Source: a virus. Taken from it: DNA of 27,465 bases. The position numbers were made by a program, and so were the translations under genes. The DNA lies in IMG/VR virus record IMGVR_UViG_3300012005_000028, positions 7,784 to 35,248 of that record; one strand, written 5' to 3'. This document shows, piece after piece, positions 809 to 22,398 of this stretch (the first letter of the stretch is position 1; each line of letters starts with the position of its first letter). Under the pieces are notes generated by a model. It had not been told where the DNA came from, searched no databases, and saw nothing but the letters and a program-made list of their open reading frames with translations.

Positions 809-1208
809 TTTCCATCAACCTCTCACATTCAGCGTTGCATTCTTTCCAGTTGGCGCCGAGCAGCCAGATGACGACGCGCTCAAAGCGACTCCCCCATTTA
901 TGACCAACTCGGTAGGGGCACCGGGGGTCAAACCCGGCTTCAACGCTACGAGGCCAGATGCCCACATCGTACTCCGCTTCAAATAGCGCGTCAAACGCAT
1001 CACATTCTTCAGTCGTAATGCCAGCGGATAGGCACATACCGACCTCGATCAACTCATGGAACAGAACTGCAAACTTATTCTGCCAGCTTATCTCTTCAGA
1101 AATGAAGATCGTAATCGCATCCCCATCAACTCGCCAGTGCCCAATTGTCGTGAACTCGTGGGTCTCATGGGGAATGAATTTGAGGTCAATTCTCTTTATC
1201 GTCGTCAT
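798..1208 (-). CDS. Conserved phage protein with HELIE motif (possible metallopeptidase-like fold)
   Basis: A 136-residue protein. I chose the ATG at 1208 because it follows a very strong Shine-Dalgarno sequence (AGGAGGTTGAAG) lying inside the end of the upstream ATP-grasp gene; a TTG two codons earlier is less likely. Near residue 51 it has FHELIE, followed by a conserved-looking GI...ECDAFDALFE segment and, later, a DPRCPYRVGH segment. This order resembles a phage family I know from other genomes (HELxE, then GI..E.vD.FD, then DP..PY...H). HExxH zinc peptidases have a second His where this protein has Glu, so catalysis is not established. The role is unknown. It sits between the ATP-grasp ligase and the fibre gene, overlapping both. 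Confidence 0.65.
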   Translation of the reverse strand: MTTIKRIDLKFIPHETHEFTTIGHWRVDGDAITIFISEEISWQNKFAVLFHELIEVGMCLSAGITTEECDAFDALFEAEYDVGIWPRSVEAGFDPRCPYRVGHKWGSRFERVVIWLLGANWKECNAECERLMENGH

Positions 1209-2613
1209 CTTCAACCTCCTTCAGAAAAGGCTTTATAGCGGCCAGGCGATTCAGGATAGACGATTCGTACTCCATCGAGAGGAAGTCAAACATCGGGCGA
1301 TAATAAATTTTCTCGAATATCACACGTTCAGCGGCATAGTACGCGCGCCCCACGGCGGTATCGAGGCTATCGGATGCCCCTGTGGCTACGCCGAGCAGGT
1401 CGTATCCGCCGACCGATACTACATCACCCTCTTCAACGCCTTCGCCTGGAGGGGCTTTTTTGATCAGATAGAAAAATGTGTTGTCGGCCACATCCTCTTC
1501 CCATTCAACCGGGATATCGTCTTTGGACGAGGCTGTTTCTTCGCCGTTGCCCTCCAAGTTAAACAGGCGTACAGCCGCGCCATATTTGTTCTTCAGCGGG
1601 TTCACGCCGTTGCAGATGTCCTCGAAAAATTTCGCTACGAATGGCTCGCCTTCGTCGCGCATGACCATCTCGGAGAACATGCCGTCCCAGCCGAATCGAG
1701 CGCTGCAAAATTCGGTGAAGTAAAAATCCTCACCGTTGTATAACAATCCTGCGTCATAAATCGCAATGCCAGGCTTCTTCTTTGCGAGGTCGTAAATTAC
1801 CTTCGGAAACGCGATTTCGTTCATTCGGCAGTGCTGCTCGGTACGAACATTCAGGCCGATTGCACCGCCCTTTTGCACGCCAATGTCACCCGCGCCCAGA
1901 GACTTACACTCCATTTCTACCAACGAATAGACGTACTCGCCGTTGTAGAAAACCATAACAGGCGTAACTTCGAGACAATTTGCGATTTTCTCTTCCAGCA
2001 GGAAGCCGCCCGTCTCGTAATTCGCACGATCCTTGAGCAGAGCTGATGTGACGATACGCTTACCTACCTCGACCTCGCTGGTTCGCGGTACGATAGCCTT
2101 CCCGGCGTTCCCGTTGCTCTTGAGCACGTAGATGCTGTCCGACTTCTCGATGTGCGCTATGCCTTCCTTAACGGTCTTGAAATTGAACGAGTCGGCTACC
2201 CGAACATCGGGGTAGTTCTTCTTCACGAAGTCTTTGGCAAGTTCACGTTCTTTCTCCATACGCCAGTCCCACTTCGTCGGGAACAGGCCACGTTTGAAGC
2301 CCATCTTACTGACGGTTTCTGCGATGTTAAAAAGATTAGAATGGTCAAAAAACACGAAATATTCGTCCTGTTTATTCTTCGGCACTTTTGCCAGCATGGA
2401 CAACACTTGACCGAAGGGCTGTTTTTTCAGTAGGCCGTCATAACAGGAGAGGCGTTGTTTCTTGAATTGAGGCGTTTCGTCATCTTTGGAATCGGGGATG
2501 CCGAGCTCAGTGACGGATTTAACCACACCGACGACGACTTTATGGCCTTCATCGATCAGATGCTTCGCGATGGGTAGCGGATACGGCTCAAGGCTGAAGA
2601 ACACGTAGATCAT
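1186..2613 (-). CDS. ATP-grasp ligase, related to phage PurD/GARS-like proteins
   Basis: A 475-residue protein. The N-terminal 100 residues look like a pre-ATP-grasp alpha/beta domain (MIYVFFSLEPYPLPIAKHL). Then come TKWDWRMEKER (about residue 113), a lysine-glycine ATP-loop segment YVLKSNGNAGKAIVP (about 163-177), the strand-Glu segment LLEEKI, and ECKSLGAGDIGVQKGG, which resembles the substrate loop of glycinamide-ribonucleotide-synthetase-like ATP-grasp proteins in phages. The family couples ATP hydrolysis to joining a carboxylate with an amine via an acyl phosphate. The C-terminus is highly acidic (EDDDDKEN). It overlaps the racemase gene by an ATGA junction, so the two are probably made together. 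The substrate cannot be read from the sequence: purine synthesis, peptide ligation or protein tailing are all possible. Confidence 0.7.
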   Translation of the reverse strand: MIYVFFSLEPYPLPIAKHLIDEGHKVVVGVVKSVTELGIPDSKDDETPQFKKQRLSCYDGLLKKQPFGQVLSMLAKVPKNKQDEYFVFFDHSNLFNIAETVSKMGFKRGLFPTKWDWRMEKERELAKDFVKKNYPDVRVADSFNFKTVKEGIAHIEKSDSIYVLKSNGNAGKAIVPRTSEVEVGKRIVTSALLKDRANYETGGFLLEEKIANCLEVTPVMVFYNGEYVYSLVEMECKSLGAGDIGVQKGGAIGLNVRTEQHCRMNEIAFPKVIYDLAKKKPGIAIYDAGLLYNGEDFYFTEFCSARFGWDGMFSEMVMRDEGEPFVAKFFEDICNGVNPLKNKYGAAVRLFNLEGNGEETASSKDDIPVEWEEDVADNTFFYLIKKAPPGEGVEEGDVVSVGGYDLLGVATGASDSLDTAVGRAYYAAERVIFEKIYYRPMFDFLSMEYESSILNRLAAIKPFLKEVEDDDDKEN

Positions 2614-3278
2614 GATTTCCCTACCACCTTCGCTATCATCACCGCGCCGGCATCGACGCAGATTGAGGGTAACTCGCCGACGAGCGGGAGTTCAGTGCAT
2701 CCGAGTATAACGCGTTCCGCGCCGTTGCGCACCATCATTTGAACGATACCGAGAATGGCGCATTGTTCACTAAACCCGGCCTTTCCCGCGATGACCTTCG
2801 CAATCACATCATCCACCAGGTCTTGCTGTTTGTGCGTCGTGCGGATTACCTCAATACCGTGTGAATGTAACGCGTGGTCGTAGAGACGTGTCTTCCGCGT
2901 ACAGGCCGACGATATGACGCCAACCTTGGTGTGTGGCTGACATACTTTGGCCGCCAGATGAATCATGTTCTTGATCTTCGCGGTAGAATCCTTCTGTAGT
3001 GTATCGAGGTAGATGTGCGCCGTATTACAGGCAATCAGAATCGTCTCGCAGCCATAGTTGTTCAGCATCGCAACGGAGGCTTGTAGCGCGTGAAGCGTCT
3101 GCTCTCCGTCTGTCACGCCAGTAGCGTTCATGCCCGTCTCGGAGATGTTGTGGAGGACAATCTCGGGGAAGTCGCTGTCATTGACAGCCCCCTTACGTTG
3201 ATACGCGCGGATGAGGGAATCGTAAAACCGAACTCCCGCCGCCGCTCCCATGCCTGAGATGATGCCTAGTTTTTTCAT
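2610..3278 (-). CDS. Aspartate/glutamate racemase family protein
   Basis: A 222-residue protein, close to the usual 225-235 of cofactor-independent aspartate racemases. It starts MKKLGIISGMGAAAG, the typical Gly-rich first loop. Both catalytic cysteines are present in canonical contexts: Cys84 in ACNTAH and Cys194 in LGCTELP. Enzymes of this family invert L/D amino acids (Asp or Glu, sometimes others) with two thiols and no PLP; the activity here is therefore plausible but the substrate is not defined. The start overlaps the lytic transglycosylase stop (ATGA) and its own stop overlaps the ATP-grasp start, placing it firmly in the virion operon. A racemase here is unusual for a phage. Confidence 0.88.
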   Translation of the reverse strand: MKKLGIISGMGAAAGVRFYDSLIRAYQRKGAVNDSDFPEIVLHNISETGMNATGVTDGEQTLHALQASVAMLNNYGCETILIACNTAHIYLDTLQKDSTAKIKNMIHLAAKVCQPHTKVGVISSACTRKTRLYDHALHSHGIEVIRTTHKQQDLVDDVIAKVIAGKAGFSEQCAILGIVQMMVRNGAERVILGCTELPLVGELPSICVDAGAVMIAKVVGKS

Positions 3279-5776
3279 TTTCTCGCGCCCTCGTGCGCCT
3301 CATCCAATACTTCTTTCGCTGTGGTCGTTTCTTTGTGGGCGGCGGCGACAGCATTATTCAATTTCTTCATCTCTGCGAGTTTTTCACTCTCTGGAATCAG
3401 TAACGCCTTGAGTCGTTTCTTACCTGATTCAGCCGCCGCAACCGCGTCCTTGAGGGCCGTTTTTGCAAGGCCATAGTCACCTCGGAGGGTATTCACAGTA
3501 TCAACCCATTTCTTGTGCTCGGATTCTTTATTCTTCTGGACAGCATCCGCCGCTGCGATGGCCGCGCCCCGTCGCTCATTTTTGGCCTTTTCCATCGCGG
3601 TATCAGCACGTGCGGCTCTCGCCCGACCATTTTTAATGTCAGCCGCCATCTTCGCTTTAGACGCCACCGCTTCATCGGCATGGAGTTGTTTGGCTCTTGC
3701 TCTATCGGCTTCAGTCCGAGCGGTACGCGCCACATCCGCCGCAGTCGGAGGCTCAACAGGGGGTTTTGCTTGTGACGCGGCCCTCTCCGCAATAACCTGT
3801 TCAGCGGTTTTCTTCACGTCGGACGGCTTCCATTCCTTGTCGGGGGTGTACCCATTCTCCGGGAGCGACTCGGCTTGCGCCGTTTTCGATAGAGGCCGTT
3901 TCGCCAATGTTTTTATGATCGGAAATGAACTGAGCGCACGCCCCGCTGCGTAGTGCGTGTTACCGATAGCCGCATGACCAGCGATTGCGGCCATCTGTGG
4001 AATGCCATTCTCACCTTTCGCTGCACGAGGATTAAAGCCGCGCATCGCTTCAGGGAAGGCGTCTGCAATTTTACCCACAGTGGCTACTCCGCCATCAAAT
4101 TTATCAGGGGCCTTACTCCACTCTTTGCCTAGGGCGATAAAATCGGGTCGACCTGTCGACGGACTCGTGATGTCTTCAATCGTCTGCGCTTTTGCAAAAA
4201 TCTTCCGAGAATCTGCAATTACGCCGACGTGTTTAATATTATCCGGATTAGCGGCGACAGAATCCGCAACCGATTCTTCAACGTGTTTGTCCAGCGCATC
4301 AGCCGCATCCAGCAAGGCCTGTCCTTCGACCTTTTGTTGTCTTGACCTGGCTTTGCCGTACTCCACAGACATTTTGTGCTTCGCTTCTTCGCGAAGGGCG
4401 CTGGCCGCTTTGAACACATCTACCGTAGGAATCGACAACGGCCTCGCGCCTCCCATACTAGCTGGCGAGTTAGCCACAACCTCAAAGCTCTTTGGCATCA
4501 CTGGAACATTGAGATTTTGGATGGTTTTGATTACATCTTCCGGTACGGATACGGTCGGGACGTCCTTCGCAACTTCTTCGCGTCGTGCGCCCTGCGCATC
4601 GCGGACATCTTGCAAGTCCTTCGTCGAGATAAATGAACTTCCGGGGTCAAGTCCGATGTCGGTTCGTAGATGGCCAATAGCGGGTTGCGCGTTCTGGTCA
4701 GAGGCAGCGTCGTGCGTCTCTTTCATTTCAAGCATCGGGCGTTTCCCAAATAAACCTTCGGGTATCACCATGCCTGCGTCATGCGCTTCCCTGACAGTTT
4801 GCTGTATCGGCGTGTAGGGAACTGGGCGAGGTGCCGGGGGTTCTTTTACTCCAGACACACTTCGAACTCCTTTCATCACATCGGAGGGAAGCGTTTTTGC
4901 GCCACTCCAGACCGCGCCCGGTGTAGCTTTTTTCACTCCGCGCACTACGCCTTTAGCCGTATCCGTCGCAATAAGTCCTGCTTGCGCAGCAACACCCGGT
5001 ATGTGTGGGATACTCGGGCCGAAACCGGGGATAGGCGGCAATTTACTTGCCTCAAACGCGGTTCCCAACGCTTCAGCTTCAGATTTACCTGCTTCAGTCC
5101 TTGGGGTATAGGTGTAACGATCTGCGAAAGACCGCATACGCGATTCTTTATTCGCGGCGGTATCGCCCGTCAGACCCCCATAAATCGCTCCCCCAAGTGT
5201 GGCCACACCGCCCGATATCGCGGCTAACCCAGCTTCCCCGGCGCCTACTATGGACTCACCGACGGTGGGCGCTGGTGTGGGTGCAGGGAGTGCCGCTGTA
5301 CCGGGTATATCGCTGGCGGTGTAAGTATGCGGGGATGACTCCGCGATGATATCTGCAAATGGGTTTGAGGGATGAACCCCGTTAGGTAGCGTCAATACCG
5401 GGTTACTAGCCGTAGGGGGGACACCTAACTTCTTATTGGCGTAGTCAACGCTTTCTTTTGGGGCTTTATTCACGCCATACTTATCTACGTTTCCTTCGCC
5501 CCAATTGTAAGCAATCAACGCTGTTCTTGCATCACCATCGTATTTATCGACTAGCCGCGTGAGATGCTTTTTTCCACCGACTACACTCTGAATGGGATCA
5601 GTCCTGTCTGTAACCCCCAAGTCTTTTGCGGTATCAGGCATGAGTTGAACCAGGCCGACGGCGCGCTCTCCTTTTCGAGTCTTTGGGCCAACAGCATTTG
5701 CGTCTCCGCTGCTCTCGTCCCTTATAACTTGGGGCATCAAACCGTCGGCAATAATTTCTGAAAAGGCGTTTGCCAT
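3275..5776 (-). CDS. Large internal virion protein with N-terminal lytic transglycosylase domain
   Basis: An 833-residue protein. Residues 10-105 form an SLT-type lysozyme-like domain: the probable catalytic Glu21 in VIRDESSGDANAVG, then AVGLVQLMPDTA and later TALIAYNWGEGNVDKYG. Such domains cleave the glycan strand of peptidoglycan. The middle is Pro/Ala/Gly-rich and probably flexible. Roughly residues 640-833 are an Ala/Lys/Glu-rich, probably long coiled-coil region. This architecture (small muralytic head on a very long body) matches DNA-ejection proteins of short-tailed phages, which enter the cell with the DNA and locally open the wall. The start follows GAGGGAATGTAAA, and the gene lies just after two other ejection-type genes. 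Confidence 0.85.
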   Translation of the reverse strand: MANAFSEIIADGLMPQVIRDESSGDANAVGPKTRKGERAVGLVQLMPDTAKDLGVTDRTDPIQSVVGGKKHLTRLVDKYDGDARTALIAYNWGEGNVDKYGVNKAPKESVDYANKKLGVPPTASNPVLTLPNGVHPSNPFADIIAESSPHTYTASDIPGTAALPAPTPAPTVGESIVGAGEAGLAAISGGVATLGGAIYGGLTGDTAANKESRMRSFADRYTYTPRTEAGKSEAEALGTAFEASKLPPIPGFGPSIPHIPGVAAQAGLIATDTAKGVVRGVKKATPGAVWSGAKTLPSDVMKGVRSVSGVKEPPAPRPVPYTPIQQTVREAHDAGMVIPEGLFGKRPMLEMKETHDAASDQNAQPAIGHLRTDIGLDPGSSFISTKDLQDVRDAQGARREEVAKDVPTVSVPEDVIKTIQNLNVPVMPKSFEVVANSPASMGGARPLSIPTVDVFKAASALREEAKHKMSVEYGKARSRQQKVEGQALLDAADALDKHVEESVADSVAANPDNIKHVGVIADSRKIFAKAQTIEDITSPSTGRPDFIALGKEWSKAPDKFDGGVATVGKIADAFPEAMRGFNPRAAKGENGIPQMAAIAGHAAIGNTHYAAGRALSSFPIIKTLAKRPLSKTAQAESLPENGYTPDKEWKPSDVKKTAEQVIAERAASQAKPPVEPPTAADVARTARTEADRARAKQLHADEAVASKAKMAADIKNGRARAARADTAMEKAKNERRGAAIAAADAVQKNKESEHKKWVDTVNTLRGDYGLAKTALKDAVAAAESGKKRLKALLIPESEKLAEMKKLNNAVAAAHKETTTAKEVLDEAHEGARK

Positions 5777-7209: not shown

Positions 7210-8487
7210 TCACTGCCATTGACCTGTTGAGGAATTATACTGCCATTGACCGCCGTTGGGGTTCGGGTATGAAGGCATCGGTGGCGTACTCAACCCATTC
7301 GGCCCCCCGAGCGCATTGCTCACACCAGTAATCATGTTCCCTGTGGCGGTGTTCAACTGAGTTGCATTCGCCGCACCAGCCTGTTGAGCAACCTGGCCTT
7401 TATTCATCGCAGCGAGGTTCTGATCAGCAATCGTCGTCCCCAATCCGGCCTGTTGTACGGCGGTAGTCGCCTGATTCGAGGATATCCCAGACTGAAGTCC
7501 AAGCGACTGCTGCGTGGCCGCTGCTGTTGTGTCGGCAATGGCTCGCCCGGAGTCGGTCAGGTAGTTAGTCACAGATTGATCGCCCAGTGATGAACCCGCC
7601 AGTCCGCGTTGTGCATTACTTTGCAGGAGTGCCCCATAGCCTGCCGATTGTTGCTGTCTGAGAGGGTCTACAACCGATTGGACGTATTGCCCTTGATTCG
7701 CCCCTGCCGCGCTGAACAGGCCCGCTTGCTGATTGGCTACCGTGCTCAAGCCGGTCGTTGCCGCCGTGTTCAGCGCCGGAGTAGCTGTTCCAAGGCTCGT
7801 CGTCGCTCCGTTTGCCCCAACCACGGAGGATGCCACAACTCGCCCGGTTGTTGGATCAACGACGTACTGCGAGGGGTTTACCTGATTTGCTTTTACCTGG
7901 CTCAGTGCCGCCGCGCCAGTAAGTGCTGATGTCCCCGTGCGCAGTAATGCAGCCCCGGTCGGAGCGTTGAGGAAATTCATTGCACTTTGAGGAATATTAC
8001 TCCAATCGAACGGTGTTCCTGCCGGGGCTGCGGCTTGCGCCGTAATCGCGTTTTGAACAGCCGTCGCATCCGCCTGACTGATAGCGCCTGCCGCAACCTG
8101 CCCTTGGACAGCATCCACCGCCGCTGCCGTGTTGATCTGCGCAACTGTGTACCCGGCGGAAGAATAGGCTTCTGCTGCGGCAGTCGCATCTGCTGCCGAA
8201 AGACCTGGACTGGCTGTTTGAAGGGCACTAGCCATGTCTGACACAGAAGATGCACCCGCTGAAGCAGCTGGCGCCATAGAAGACATCGCCGCACCAATTC
8301 CAGAAGCGACCCCGCCAGTCAGTCCGCCGTAGAGCATCCCTTGCCCGACACTTCCCCCAGTGACCGCCGCAATACCCCCGCCGACCAGAGCGCCTGCCGC
8401 CACGCCGCCTATGATTCCTGCCGCAGTCGCACCCACTCCTGCTGCGATAAGACCTCCACCTACATATGCTGAGACGAATGAAGACAT
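7210..8487 (-). CDS. Gly/Ala-rich probable DNA-ejection protein
   Basis: A 425-residue protein. The ATG at 8487 is preferred because AAGGAG sits five bases upstream; a GTG at 8493 would overlap that site. The first 75 residues are strongly hydrophobic and Gly/Ala-rich with repeated GG/AxxG spacing (for example GGGLIAAGVGATAAGIIGGV), a glycine-zipper pattern that could insert in or cross a membrane. The rest is Ala/Gln/Ser/Thr-rich and probably helical; the tail is Pro/Asn/Gly-rich. This looks like the small ejection proteins of short-tailed phages that form part of the channel across the envelope. Its first 28 bp overlap the end of the cupin-SET gene. Confidence 0.6.
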   Translation of the reverse strand: MSSFVSAYVGGGLIAAGVGATAAGIIGGVAAGALVGGGIAAVTGGSVGQGMLYGGLTGGVASGIGAAMSSMAPAASAGASSVSDMASALQTASPGLSAADATAAAEAYSSAGYTVAQINTAAAVDAVQGQVAAGAISQADATAVQNAITAQAAAPAGTPFDWSNIPQSAMNFLNAPTGAALLRTGTSALTGAAALSQVKANQVNPSQYVVDPTTGRVVASSVVGANGATTSLGTATPALNTAATTGLSTVANQQAGLFSAAGANQGQYVQSVVDPLRQQQSAGYGALLQSNAQRGLAGSSLGDQSVTNYLTDSGRAIADTTAAATQQSLGLQSGISSNQATTAVQQAGLGTTIADQNLAAMNKGQVAQQAGAANATQLNTATGNMITGVSNALGGPNGLSTPPMPSYPNPNGGQWQYNSSTGQWQ

Positions 8488-9338
8488 TGCCACTCCTTAT
8501 CTAATTTTACGGATTCGACTTGGGATTGCCGGTAATCCACTGTGATTTCTTCACCATCAAGCCCCCCGCGTGACCCGGCTATTGGTCGTTGCGCTACGAG
8601 GTCAATTCCTCCCGCGCCGTTCGCTCTAGGAAATGCGTTTGGTATTTTTGAATGATTTGTGTACCGGCCAATCGGCGTTCTACACAACCCGATTCGTGCG
8701 GGAGCAATCACTTCACCTTCCGCTATGTCACTTACGGCGAATACACCGCGCCCTTGGATGTGAGAATCTGCAATCGTGAATTTGTACATCCCGTAGGGCA
8801 GTGGTATCAAGTCGGCGTGATTCTCCACAACTGCCCGCACCTGTTCTTCGGTCAATCCCCGTTCTTCCAGCAACAGAGTGTAGTCAGCCACATCTTCAGA
8901 TCGATCAACGGTTGATTTAACCTGTTTGTTCATCAGGATCAAGGGGTCGTTCATGTCGAGAAACATCGCTTCGAGCTTTGCGATATCGGTTTCGTCTGTG
9001 GCGTAAATGTTCTGCCACACCATGTCCTCTTTGATGTACCCCACGTTACGGCCAGGTGGCGATACAAAAGTCATCGGCGCTACAAGCTCTTTAATCTCGG
9101 CCTCATCTGTCAGGACAAGCACTCGACCTTTCGTGAAATTGTTGGTACACGCAGTTTTATGGATCTGGCCGATAGCAAATACGCCGGCAGACACGTGTGC
9201 CTCGCGAATATAGATGCCGGGGCCGAAGAAATGTTGAATATCAATCCGAGCCTGCGGCTGCTGAAGTGAGTGCGTAATCGCGTCATCTACCCGCTGCGAG
9301 GTGAGGAATCCGGTTATTTCTGCGAGTTCATCTTTCAT
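8460..9338 (-). CDS. Cupin-like plus SET-domain fusion protein
   Basis: A 292-residue protein starting at the ATG of a TGATG junction with the upstream gene. Residues about 33-118 resemble a cupin-type domain found in phage virion loci: HFFGPGIYIREAHVSAG, IGQIHKTACTNNFTKG, APMTFVSPPGRNVGY and EDMVWQNIYATDETD. Residues about 189-270 carry the SET-domain signatures in order: a GRGVF start, NHSKIPNA and GEEITVDYR. SET domains transfer methyl groups from S-adenosylmethionine to lysines; the NHS and Glu-Asp-Tyr elements form the cofactor pocket and active site. The gene lies among ejection-protein genes, so a virion-associated or virion-modifying methyltransferase is possible. The cupin metal ligands are not clearly conserved, so that half may be structural. 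Confidence 0.75.
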   Translation of the reverse strand: MKDELAEITGFLTSQRVDDAITHSLQQPQARIDIQHFFGPGIYIREAHVSAGVFAIGQIHKTACTNNFTKGRVLVLTDEAEIKELVAPMTFVSPPGRNVGYIKEDMVWQNIYATDETDIAKLEAMFLDMNDPLILMNKQVKSTVDRSEDVADYTLLLEERGLTEEQVRAVVENHADLIPLPYGMYKFTIADSHIQGRGVFAVSDIAEGEVIAPARIGLCRTPIGRYTNHSKIPNAFPRANGAGGIDLVAQRPIAGSRGGLDGEEITVDYRQSQVESVKLDKEWQCLHSSQHM

Positions 9339-9841
9339 CACTGCGGCCTTTGAAGCGGCGAGGGTGTGCCGAGGGGTGCGGGTGCTGCCGGTGGGCTCGG
9401 CACACCAGGGGCGGCTGGGGGCTGACCGGCTGGGGCGGTGGGTTTAACGATGCCCTTCTTGGTTAGGTCAGCAATCTGTTCTGGCGTAACGTGGTTGAAC
9501 TTGCCGTTCGCGTCCACACTGCCCAAGACCTTCCCGGTATTGTCCCATACGACCTTGCCGTCCGCCGAGACGAATACTTTCTTGCCGGGTTCATCAACGC
9601 TGCCATCCACAACGCCCGCCGTGACCTTGACCTTTTTGCCGTTAATATCAATTTCGCCGTTGTACTCCTTGCCCGTAGGCTTACCTTGTACTGGCTGACC
9701 AGGTGTGGCCGCGGGCGGCGCTGGTTGAGGCGCGGCAGCGGGAGGCTGACCAGTAGCGGCGGAAGGGGGCTGGCCGGGGACGGGCGTGGCAGGCGCTCTC
9801 AGCCCCATCATCCCCGAACTATCGTCTGTTGTTAAACTCAT
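9338..9841 (-). CDS. Proline/alanine-rich virion-operon protein of unknown function
   Basis: A 167-residue protein with Pro/Ala/Gly/Gln-rich, probably disordered arms (residues 10-55 and 130-167) around a small beta-rich core of about 70 residues. The core reads as alternating hydrophobic strands and Gly turns (GEIDINGKKVKVTAG, KKVFVSADGKVVWDNTGKVL). It ends with a helix-like TPEQIADLTKKGI. A strong Shine-Dalgarno (AGGAGAAATC) precedes the ATG, which overlaps the previous stop as ATGA. I do not recognise the family. A linker or small virion-associated protein is plausible from its location between the nozzle region and the ejection genes. Confidence 0.6.
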   Translation of the reverse strand: MSLTTDDSSGMMGLRAPATPVPGQPPSAATGQPPAAAPQPAPPAATPGQPVQGKPTGKEYNGEIDINGKKVKVTAGVVDGSVDEPGKKVFVSADGKVVWDNTGKVLGSVDANGKFNHVTPEQIADLTKKGIVKPTAPAGQPPAAPGVPSPPAAPAPLGTPSPLQRPQ

Positions 9842-17274: not shown

Positions 17275-18728
17275 CACCAGTTCCTCCTACCTTGTTTTAC
17301 CTTCACTGGCTTCGCAGCGACGGGGATTGTTTGGGCATGACGTAATGACATCACGGCATACCGGCATGATTGCAAAATGTCCTCCGACTGCTTGACTAAC
17401 TTTCCTTTTGTGTCGCGATGGAACATGCGTTTCTCTTCGAGGAACAGTTGACAAGTCCGAAAAACCTTAAATCGTCCCGACTCCATCCGCTCAACCATGT
17501 CAAGCAGCGAGGCTTCCACAGAATTACCACCTTCGCCTTCCTTCTGCCCCGCTTGGGGTGCGTTCGTCGCGCGTGCTGGGAGCAAGTTTAACCCAGCTTC
17601 AACATATTTGTCGCGTAATTGTTCACCCGTGCCTTTTTCCGTGTTCAATCCGTCATGCGGCCATGCCACTGGAACCCAGTCGCCCCACGCTGCAATAGCG
17701 AGGGCATGGACAGCAGGAACGGCCTTCGACTCACGGTACTCATTCGTCAGGTATATACAGTCGTTGTCCCGATCCCACGCAATTTGCACTGCACCAAATG
17801 GGTGATCCCATCCAAAGTCAATGCCATTAATGCGCGGCCAGTGGCGGGGGATAGGAAACGGGTCAACGGTGATGGAAGACTCTGACTGAGGAAACACCAA
17901 GCCGGCGCCCATCAGTGGGCTACCGTTACGCCGCATCTCCCGCTCATGCTCTGGAAAAGCAGATAACTTGCGTACCTTATCCTCCTCAGTAAAGTGGAGG
18001 GCATCATCCCACGTAAGGATTGTGACAGACTGGCCAATCGCTAAATCATTTATGAACTGTGTGACCAGTTTGGTCATACCTTCTTCTGGCGTAAGCGTCA
18101 GATACAGCATCGCATCCCTAGCCGCAAGCCCGGCTCGAAGAAACTGTGACCATACGTCCTGTGGCGGCTCCTCGTCTAGCCAGCCAACGCTTACGCCTGT
18201 GACGCCCATGAACGCTTTGAATCCCTGCTCGTAAGCACGCAGATAGACCGTGGACATTCCATCGTAAACGCCATTGGTAAAATGCTTGACTTGCACTGAA
18301 TCGTAGGCATTTGTCACCCCGGCTTTTCGGGTCGCTTTGCCAACACAGTCGATGGGGACTGAGCCTGTGCCGAGTTGTTTCTCATCTAGCGGGTCGCCAA
18401 ATAGGGCTTTCTGGATAATGTCACGACAAGACACGTTTGTTACCCCGCCGCACACCATCAGAATAGGGTATTTATATCGTACACCTTCATACCAGTCAGG
18501 GTAGCGACCGGTCAGGTGCATAGCCCCTTCCATTGAGCCACAATACGATTTTCCTCCTTGATTGCCACCTAACAAAAGCTTCTGTGAGGCAGGCAGGTTC
18601 GTCCCTTTACCTTTGGCGTTGTGGAATTCCATCTGGCGTGGATAGGGGGCGTAATACTCGAGGCGATAAATCTTTTTTCGCCGTTCGAGTTGGGCCAGTA
18701 GCCCTAATGCGTCACCTACTCCCGCCAT
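17274..18728 (-). CDS. terL: Terminase large subunit (packaging ATPase and nuclease)
   Basis: A 484-residue protein. The ATG at 18728 is preferred; the longest open frame would begin at 18821 but would overlap the upstream glycosyltransferase by more than 100 bp. Walker A is GGNQGGKS (residues 54-61). Walker B with the catalytic carboxylates is VGWLDEEPP (about 181-189). The nuclease domain begins with GIDFGWDHP, supplying the first metal-binding Asp (304). The motor translocates DNA through the portal into the procapsid and cuts it at the end. Order terminase, portal, scaffold, capsid is standard. Confidence 0.92.
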   Translation of the reverse strand: MAGVGDALGLLAQLERRKKIYRLEYYAPYPRQMEFHNAKGKGTNLPASQKLLLGGNQGGKSYCGSMEGAMHLTGRYPDWYEGVRYKYPILMVCGGVTNVSCRDIIQKALFGDPLDEKQLGTGSVPIDCVGKATRKAGVTNAYDSVQVKHFTNGVYDGMSTVYLRAYEQGFKAFMGVTGVSVGWLDEEPPQDVWSQFLRAGLAARDAMLYLTLTPEEGMTKLVTQFINDLAIGQSVTILTWDDALHFTEEDKVRKLSAFPEHEREMRRNGSPLMGAGLVFPQSESSITVDPFPIPRHWPRINGIDFGWDHPFGAVQIAWDRDNDCIYLTNEYRESKAVPAVHALAIAAWGDWVPVAWPHDGLNTEKGTGEQLRDKYVEAGLNLLPARATNAPQAGQKEGEGGNSVEASLLDMVERMESGRFKVFRTCQLFLEEKRMFHRDTKGKLVKQSEDILQSCRYAVMSLRHAQTIPVAAKPVKVKQGRRNW

Positions 18729-19312
18729 AATTTCTTCACCCAGGGTGTCATCAATTCGTGTGGGTTCGGCCGACCATGGAATACCACAATCTTCGAGTCT
18801 TTCGGTACGCCGAACCGGCAATGCGTTTTATACGACACGCAATCACGCGCACCGAACGTCTCGGCATCAGGCAAAAGATTTGTGATCACATCCTGATCGC
18901 CGTGGTATTTCTCCATCATGGCCGGCTCAAACTCGTCCCAGACGTGCGACACGTCGTCCGCTGGGTCAAATAGCATGACGCTGGAGTTATAGCCACCGAC
19001 GTTCCAGTCCGCGATGATGTGGAAGCCATCCAGTGCAACCAGTGAATCCAACGAGCCCGTTATGACCACATCCAGGTCAATATAGAGGGTGCGTTCCTTC
19101 AGAATGCCTGGCTTGAACAGATGCATCTTCGACCACCAGCCGGGGAGTGACTTATGCGCTGGGCGAGCTACGCACTTTAACCCTTTCGGGTCGTCAGTCA
19201 GGCAGACGAAGCGATGGGGAACAGTTAGATTGCGCGCAACCATCGCCTGAAGGATATTCACATATTTCTTCGGGTATTTTGATCCGACGTTGACGCACAC
19301 GACTTCTAACAT
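18716..19312 (-). CDS. GT-A type glycosyltransferase
   Basis: A 198-residue protein with the layout of a GT8-like or related GT-A glycosyltransferase: an N-terminal nucleotide-sugar fold (MLEVVCVNVGSKYPKKYVNI, HRFVCLTDD), then TLYIDLDVVITGSLD, where DLD (79-81) is the metal-binding DxD motif. The C-terminal segment IVVFHGRPNPHEL supplies the FHG motif often found after the acceptor site. Such enzymes transfer a sugar from UDP- or GDP-sugar. It overlaps the FkbM gene by 7 bp and the terminase by 13 bp. Target could be a virion protein or host surface glycan; this is unknown. Confidence 0.78.
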   Translation of the reverse strand: MLEVVCVNVGSKYPKKYVNILQAMVARNLTVPHRFVCLTDDPKGLKCVARPAHKSLPGWWSKMHLFKPGILKERTLYIDLDVVITGSLDSLVALDGFHIIADWNVGGYNSSVMLFDPADDVSHVWDEFEPAMMEKYHGDQDVITNLLPDAETFGARDCVSYKTHCRFGVPKDSKIVVFHGRPNPHELMTPWVKKLWRE

Positions 19313-19941
19313 GATAAAAGAATATCCCTTCCATACCGCGCGATGATCTTGTAGCCGAAGTTATCAATGAGCCAGCCTTCTGTCTCACCTTCCTTCGTGC
19401 CAAACTTGGCGTAGCAAGGCTCTTTATCTTCAATCGCAATGACCGGCTTGAACTTTGTGATTGTCACCTGTGCGCCCTTGAGCGCCGCCAGTTCAGATCC
19501 TTCTATGTCGAGCAGAATTAAGTCGCACGATTCAAGCCCGAGGTCATCAATTCTCAATGTTGGGACGAGTCCTTTACCGCGTACATATTTCGCTCCCGGA
19601 TTGCACTGCCCTTGGTTCTCGTCCACGATGCTGACGAGGCCGGGTTTATCGCCAAGTGCCGCTTGCAACTTAATGACGTTTGACTCTGGACAATTTATGC
19701 CCAAACAATAGAAATTCTCAGCGTCGGGTTCAAAGGTGTACACCGAATGAAACTTCGCAGCCAGGGTGCGGGGGAAAACGCCGAGGTTCCCCCCCGCTTG
19801 AACACAGGTATCCCACGCTTTAATATATGGCCACACCTTTTCGAGTTCGTGAACTTCATCCGTGGCTGCCGTGTAACATACTTCGTCATCGACCGGAACG
19901 ATGAACCCCCGACACTCTTTAGTTGTGGGGGCTTTCATCAT
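19306..19941 (-). CDS. FkbM-family methyltransferase
   Basis: A 211-residue protein. The SAM-binding glycine motif is CVQAGGNLGVFP (about 46-57), followed by VYTFEPDAENFYCLGIN, which is the typical FkbM FEP.......L..N segment. Later segments TLRIDDLGLESCDLILLDIEGSE match the FkbM DD......D.i.iDvEG.E signature. FkbM enzymes methylate hydroxyl groups of sugars or other small acceptors. Overlap with the glycosyltransferase next to it suggests that the two act on the same glycan. Start is at the first of two adjacent ATG codons. Confidence 0.87.
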   Translation of the reverse strand: MMKAPTTKECRGFIVPVDDEVCYTAATDEVHELEKVWPYIKAWDTCVQAGGNLGVFPRTLAAKFHSVYTFEPDAENFYCLGINCPESNVIKLQAALGDKPGLVSIVDENQGQCNPGAKYVRGKGLVPTLRIDDLGLESCDLILLDIEGSELAALKGAQVTITKFKPVIAIEDKEPCYAKFGTKEGETEGWLIDNFGYKIIARYGRDILLSC

Positions 19942-22113: not shown

Positions 22114-22398
22114 TTATTCGACGCGATAGGTGCAGGTAAATTCTGCATCGCTCGGCGCAATGATGTGGCCTTCACTGTCACTCACGAGGACAGAGCCGTC
22201 GTTGAGTGTGACTTCCACACCAGCCATCAGATTGCCTTGGGCGTTGTAAACGTGATGCACGCGAGGGAAACCAACCAGGACGACGACCGGTTCGACGGCT
22301 GGTTCGATGACTGGTTCGATGACTGGTTCGATGACTGGTTCGATGACTGGTTCGATGACTGGTTCGATGACTGGTTCGACTGGGGTGGGAGTAGCCAT
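22114..22398 (-). CDS. Protein with tandem VIEP repeats and a small beta domain
   Basis: A 94-residue protein. After MATPTP it contains a run of tetrapeptides: VEP, six VIEP, then AVEP. This gives a stiff, acidic, proline-rich stalk encoded by a 12-bp tandem repeat. Residues about 45-94 form a compact beta-rich domain (HHVYNAQGNLMAGVEVTLND, SEGHIIAPSDAEF) resembling carboxypeptidase regulatory-type or Ig-like folds. Thus it may be a small decoration or attachment protein. The start has AGGAGAATCAC, shared with the next gene. Confidence 0.68.
   Translation of the reverse strand: MATPTPVEPVIEPVIEPVIEPVIEPVIEPVIEPAVEPVVVLVGFPRVHHVYNAQGNLMAGVEVTLNDGSVLVSDSEGHIIAPSDAEFTCTYRVE
22288..22380 (-). 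repeat. 12-bp tandem repeat encoding VIEP
   Basis: Six identical 12-bp units (plus strand TGGTTCGATGAC) run from 22300 to 22371, flanked by a degenerate unit at 22288 and a partial one ending at 22380. The unit length keeps the reading frame, so copy number can change by slippage without disrupting the gene. The repeat is perfect at the DNA level, which suggests recent expansion or recombination. Confidence 0.95.

Follow-up and report, generated by a model that had tools for sequence, protein, structure and literature searches.

A cassette of three genes, encoding a racemase of the Asp/Glu superfamily, a PurD-like ATP-grasp ligase and a small protein with an HExxE motif, is carried by several unrelated, mostly uncultured phages, in which it lies among late genes. 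Phage ATP-grasp ligases are known, mostly among early genes. The best explanation of the cassette, which we consider rather probable, is a late-expressed phage pathway that would ligate a D-amino acid; this reading is preferred because unrelated phages have kept the racemase-ligase pair and because the ligase pocket is not PurD-like. It builds on the linkage of the three genes, the clades that they have in common, an intact ATP core and the loss of the substrate residues of PurD.

Gene layout and recurrence of the cassette

The window, by which we mean the whole stretch of 27,465 nucleotides analysed here, sits in a virus record of 35,248 bases (IMG/VR record IMGVR_UViG_3300012005_000028, positions 7,784 to 35,248), and its minus strand carries four head-to-tail genes with an overlap at each junction. 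The preceding gene (3275-5776) encodes an internal or ejection-type virion protein with an SLT domain (Pfam SLT, 1e-18) and is regarded as context outside the cassette. It overlaps the start of the racemase gene (2610-3278; 222 aa) by an ATGA, and is followed by the ligase gene (1186-2613; 475 aa), assigned by family profile, predicted fold and residue comparison, and by the overlapping gene of the HExxE protein (798-1214), recognised by its conserved linkage and its model, which encodes 136 aa from a probable ATG at 1208. The racemase stop and the ligase start share another ATGA at 2610-2613 (TCAT on the plus strand), from which translational coupling of the two genes would be expected. An earlier note on this DNA had described this overlap and the position of the pair directly after a lytic transglycosylase gene, and both descriptions are accurate. 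Its view of a two-gene racemase-ligase system holds in that the pair is conserved, but it missed the third gene, and the wider unit consists of the ligase and the HExxE protein.

The first relative, the viral contig L001, carries the same three genes in the same order (46, 53 and 41% identity), and profile scans added more cassettes, including one in a prophage of Paraburkholderia silviterrae. After removal of duplicates the trio is present in 11 distinct phages (the window, L001, L004, L006, L010, L024, L042, L048, L088, L108 and L115), a count based on peptide patterns, which miss distant relatives, and on metagenomic viral contigs, possibly partial, or prophage DNA. The racemase gene adjoins the ligase gene in all 11 of these phages, which answers the earlier question of whether the two remain neighbours, and recurrence of the pair in 11 separate phages shows that the pairing is not due to chance. 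In seven of the phages the two genes share 4 nt and in two others 1 or 8 nt, so that nine of the 11 pairs overlap; the last two pairs have gaps of 79 and about 95 nt between the genes. The HExxE gene is present and linked in every racemase cassette (11/11), downstream in most of them; in L006 the opposite strand carries it, and in L115 it precedes the racemase gene, giving the order HExxE-racemase-ligase.

The surroundings of the cassette differ from phage to phage. It follows ejection proteins in the window, L001, L004 and L006, follows the portal gene in L024 and L108, and precedes the terminase gene in L042; furthermore, tblastn with other (virion) genes of the window against the first-found loci gave no match. 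The cassette is thus a unit that stays together while its surroundings change. Its neighbours, as classified by Pfam and PHROG, are heterogeneous and mostly virion genes, and therefore provide no hint of a pathway. A small acceptor peptide common to distant cassettes was sought beside them, and none was found beyond the close relatives L010, L048 and L088. In the open-access literature, no description of the cassette or of the wider ligase-HExxE pair was found.

Several other features of these loci may be recorded. The window encodes, at 22114-22398 on the minus strand, a protein with a perfect EPVI repeat (EPVIEPVIEPVI...), and at 18716-19941, also on the minus strand, an FkbM-type methyltransferase (Pfam, 4e-13) together with a glycosyltransferase-like gene, adjoining the terminase large subunit gene; comparable glycosyltransferase, methyltransferase and HAD-like genes lie downstream of the cassette in L006. 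The terminase genes of L042 (2792-5329) and L108 (5785-8448) appear by eye to contain intein-like insertions. L003 (in record G000, not part of the window) has two consecutive ORFs on the minus strand (1005-1364 and 1368-1730) that share an identical stretch of 25 first residues (MSGHFVGNLDVRLVKDQKEPLWMLL) and then diverge, either because the region was duplicated locally or because of a join made in assembly. The tail-fibre-like gene beside the cassette in the same locus (7584-8591, minus strand) contains X residues, from bases that cannot be read in the whole record. Products of L003 6784-7587 (minus strand) and L001 13232-14467 (plus strand) resemble, by eye only, receptor-binding proteins with a C-type-lectin fold, as in the targets of diversity-generating retroelements.

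The racemase

The window racemase matches the Pfam family PF01177 (Asp_Glu_race) with 90 bits against a gathering score of 31 (2e-25), and also scores over the cut-off of the NCBIfam model asp_race. The best-scoring NCBIfam model is CuyB (NF052483; 4e-38), at 131.5 bits below its equivalog cut-off of 190, and the solved structure nearest to the racemase family profile is the aspartate racemase 1jfl of the PDB (5e-33). The motifs ACNTAH and LGCTELP are confirmed in the window sequence; the catalytic cysteines that they contain, C84 and C194, are invariant in all 11 phage racemases, and the NT and TE motifs are kept as well, T86 being T or S. The identification of a racemase with both catalytic cysteines, proposed earlier, is well supported by these matches. 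Among cultured phages, a search with the racemase returned only matches of about 27% identity.

The enzyme is like the cysteate racemase CuyB and the aspartate racemase of Pyrococcus horikoshii (PhAspR) in its fold and its two catalytic cysteines, but it scores well under the CuyB cut-off (131 versus 190) and differs from the aspartate enzyme in two residues. R48 and K164 of PhAspR, which we take to be its carboxylate-binding residues, are replaced by N, D, T or G and by I, M or Q, respectively, in all 11 aligned phage racemases. Because these residues are not conserved, D-aspartate is a doubtful product, and the candidate function of an ordinary D-aspartate racemase is weakened.

A ligase with the PurD fold

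A single-sequence search with the window ligase gives a weak match to purD (5e-9), with 35.5 bits compared with the TIGR00877 equivalog cut-off of 288, and a profile of the 51-member ligase family matches PurD structures at 1e-46. The AlphaFold model of the ligase (pLDDT 92.9) has PurD 2yw2 as its closest fold (Foldseek 6e-23, TM 0.62/0.68), and comparison with viral models returned only generic ATP-grasp matches (4e-8). The family profile and the predicted fold firmly establish the ATP-grasp identity that the earlier note had proposed. Pfam reported only GARS_C at 0.03 for the window ligase and no match to the R2K models, the PHROG families yielded no match, and cultured phages yielded none either, whether queried with the window ligase or with two of the HExxE proteins. 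For the divergent ligase L011, the records of cultured phages contain a single match, nearly full-length, in the assembled genome MW202796.

Two family members deserve mention on their own account. The ligase-family gene in MW202796.1 (42146-43447; L104, 6001-7302) has no annotated feature; a GNAT gene and two late genes without names precede it. In L007 (9650-11485, plus strand), a ligase of the sister group is fused in one ORF to an N-terminal HAD-phosphatase-like stretch (GYDFHGTLN), at a locus with neither a racemase nor an HExxE gene.

Residues of the 51 family members were aligned to the PurD of the Paraburkholderia prophage host, with residue roles taken from PMC8880213. In PurD, K103, K143, E192 and K214 are ATP residues, E100 is a Mg residue, and glycine is bound by Asp212, Arg287 (carboxylate) and Glu292 (PMC8880213). 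The ATP positions are largely kept (K143 in 50/51, E192 in 45/51 and K214 in 51/51), with R in 49 members and K in two at the position of K103, and E100 is kept in all 51. The carboxylate Arg287 is likewise kept in 51/51 and Asp212 corresponds to Glu in 49/51. Glu292 is replaced in every member, by G in the racemase clade and by P, A, S and others elsewhere, and the Mg-ligand Asn is Thr or Cys in 51/51. Furthermore, the N-terminal GGREHA loop of PurD, presumably its phosphoribosylamine loop, was sought in the corresponding columns and is absent from all 51 members.

Judged by sequence and model, the ligase has the PurD fold and is not PurD (GAR synthetase). We infer that it would be an active enzyme that still binds an alpha-amino acid and no longer binds phosphoribosylamine. 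Such an amino acid may still bind because E100, K143, E192, K214 and Arg287 are kept and Asp212 is represented by Glu; activity is not assured, since the Mg-ligand Asn is Thr or Cys throughout the family. The likeness to PurD therefore comprises the fold, the ATP-binding residues, the carboxylate Arg and an acid at the Asp212 position, whereas the phosphoribosylamine loop, Glu292 and the Mg-ligand Asn are lost and the score falls far under the family cut-off.

These results bear on a plain role in purine supply, raised earlier as the alternative for the ligase, in which the ligase would be a phage PurD and the racemase an unrelated metabolic gene. PurD is indeed the nearest fold and profile match, and phosphoribosylamine-glycine ligase genes enriched in viruses are reported from ocean surveys (PMC11360552). 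Nevertheless, the window ligase reaches only 35 bits against the purD cut-off of 288, the GGREHA loop and the glycine-binding Glu of the DPE motif are absent from all 51 ligases, and a true PurD (572 bits) is encoded in the genome that contains the Paraburkholderia prophage. In addition, the cassette has no purine gene beside it, and the purine route has no step for a racemase. In view of the residues, the score and the true host PurD, this explanation is rejected as very improbable. The pocket comparison that the earlier note had called for accordingly gave no match to PurD, with the phosphoribosylamine loop and the glycine-binding Glu gone in all 51 ligases.

The HExxE protein and its association with the ligase

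The third protein has six invariant residues (H51, E52, E55, D73, H103 and E110), which suggest a metal site, and the motif is HExxE, not the HExxH of zincins, in 66/66 proteins. Its model is of high confidence (pLDDT 96.5), and a structure search with it found no significant fold match, the best being SPRTN 6mdw (probability 0.84, E 0.3), with further zincins (Ste24/ZMPSTE24, BlaR1 and PprI/IrrE) lower in the same weak list. The likeness to these zincins consists of a helix with an HE motif; the phage protein differs in having HExxE in place of HExxH, a length of only 136 aa and a best match at E 0.3. It is probably a small metalloenzyme in which HExxE replaces HExxH. Across 399 genomes of the family of the Paraburkholderia prophage host, it was found in one only, within that prophage, and the HExxE/ligase family looks phage-borne.

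An HExxE profile identified 229 viral stretches that were confirmed by tblastn, and the best 80 of the 229 were used. A ligase of the family is present in 69 of 82 non-duplicate HExxE loci (local profiles iterated), and 37 of the 51 non-redundant ligases lie within 150 nt of the HExxE gene on the same strand. Because the HExxE loci had been ranked by how closely their proteins resemble ligase-linked ones, a reciprocal, ligase-first test was run on 80 loci of the large racemase-less ligase clade. An HExxE gene lies within 300 nt in 44 of these, and none is present in the 3 kb flanks of the other 36; a reversed-sequence control returned no HExxE gene. Given these 36 loci, the HExxE partner is not obligatory for the ligase family, and the association is strong rather than universal. 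Ligase loci that lack the HExxE gene often sit between portal and scaffold genes.

SET-domain proteins were considered as further partners. In L172/L175 and L184-L186 the gene immediately upstream of a racemase-less ligase encodes a small SET protein, and the window encodes a SET-domain protein (8460-9341, minus strand; Pfam SET, 1e-6) within the virion operon, the N-terminal part of which resembles the short tail fibre families phrog_12032 and phrog_24280. With only about two lineages, and a location elsewhere in the window, this is not enough to regard them as ligase partners.

Acquisition of the racemase

In the ligase tree the 11 racemase-linked ligases form one clade (99/98) adjoining five racemase-less sisters, and the 11 HExxE proteins of the racemase cassettes form one clade in their own tree (100/99). 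The sister L120 has an HExxE protein of another kind, and four sister phage records scanned whole (28-44 kb, possibly fragments) contain no racemase. To judge from these trees and from the HExxE loci, the core conserved unit is the ATP-grasp and HExxE pair, to which one clade later added the racemase. The clades of the ligase and the HExxE protein would fit co-specialisation, although simple co-inheritance of the cassette would yield the same trees. Nine positions distinguish the racemase-linked ligases from the sister ligases, and three of them are near the known pocket, namely G311 (PurD Glu292), E233 (two residues ahead of PurD Asp212) and T300 (adjacent to the metal-binding Glu); taken alone, three of nine is weak and suggestive only.

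An alternative, which we regard as unlikely, is that a metabolic gene, the racemase, has hitch-hiked with a ligase-HExxE pair that works alone, and that the linkage reflects common descent of the gene block. The pair does mostly occur without a racemase, and the clade patterns agree with a racemase that was acquired once and then inherited vertically. However, the block has changed its genomic position and its order with the racemase kept beside the ligase each time, overlaps of 4 nt are retained at about 40-57% identity, and both catalytic cysteines are invariant.

A possible pathway and its acceptor

The D-amino-acid ligation system put forward earlier stands as the best reading, with the pair conserved and the pocket unlike that of PurD, but an ordinary D-aspartate racemase as its first enzyme is doubtful. 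In the first step of the proposed pathway, the racemase would turn an L-amino acid into the D form, as its family and both cysteines suggest. The PurD-derived ligase, on the evidence of its fold and residues, would then use ATP to form an acyl phosphate at the carboxylate of that amino acid and couple the activated amino acid to an amine other than phosphoribosylamine, yielding an amide. In the third and least certain step, the HExxE protein might be an amidase, a peptidase or a maturation partner, for instance, whose target is the same substrate or product. We infer the catalysis, the order of the steps and the D-amino acid as ligase substrate.

As the acceptor we favour a protein or peptide amine, at a little short of an even chance; a small soluble molecule is a doubtful candidate, and a peptidoglycan precursor is quite unlikely. 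A bolder reading, rather improbable at present, is a widespread late-gene system in which the PurD-derived ligase, as an aminoacyl ligase, and the HExxE metalloenzyme aminoacylate a virion or host component, with one clade having captured a racemase and thereby producing D-aminoacyl protein tags that would resist proteases or immunity.

Relation to known systems and significance

The closest parallel in logic is found in Lactococcus lactis and other lactic acid bacteria, in which AslA is a D-aspartate ligase and RacD an aspartate racemase (PMC4155827). In both cases genes for an Asp/Glu-type racemase and an ATP-grasp ligase are coupled (here in 11 phage loci), and the supply of a D-amino acid by RacD to AslA may have its counterpart in the phage pair, in outline only. 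AslA/RacD is a cellular system that acts on peptidoglycan side chains, whereas the cassette lies among late phage genes, its ligase is PurD-derived and has an HExxE partner, and its racemase lacks the Asp-binding R48 and K164. By analogy, the cassette could modify peptidoglycan precursors, with a D-amino acid added late in infection so as to affect lysis or superinfection. The single operon of the ATP-grasp ligase AslA and the racemase RacD (PMC4155827) and the frequent location of the cassette near ejection lysins or lysis genes would agree with this. Yet it is decidedly unlikely: the phage ligase is nearest to PurD, the sole identified host is Gram-negative (Paraburkholderia) and AslA acts on L-Lys stems, the two PhAspR residues are not conserved, and most members of the ligase family are found without a racemase, among the head genes and between portal and scaffold.

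R2K (CDC123-clade) ATP-grasp ligases are also phage-borne and have been proposed to be protein modifiers (PMC4431377), but the ligase described here belongs to another ATP-grasp clade, and no racemase or HExxE partner has been reported for R2K enzymes. The gene set of LUZ24-like phages likewise includes an ATP-grasp enzyme of unknown product (PMC3890496); it differs in its early region, its 291-aa ATP-grasp protein, its amidoligase, glutamine amidotransferase and GGCT-like partners and its absence of a racemase.

The cassette names three co-selected partners and shows that one of them, the racemase, was gained once, with suggestive changes at the ligase pocket, and its predicted and testable product is a D-aminoacyl amide. 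Among the viral genes that environmental surveys have taken for purine-synthesis PurD, some may belong to the ligase family described here. If the proposed reading is true, these phages would encode a D-amino-acid ligation route of their own.
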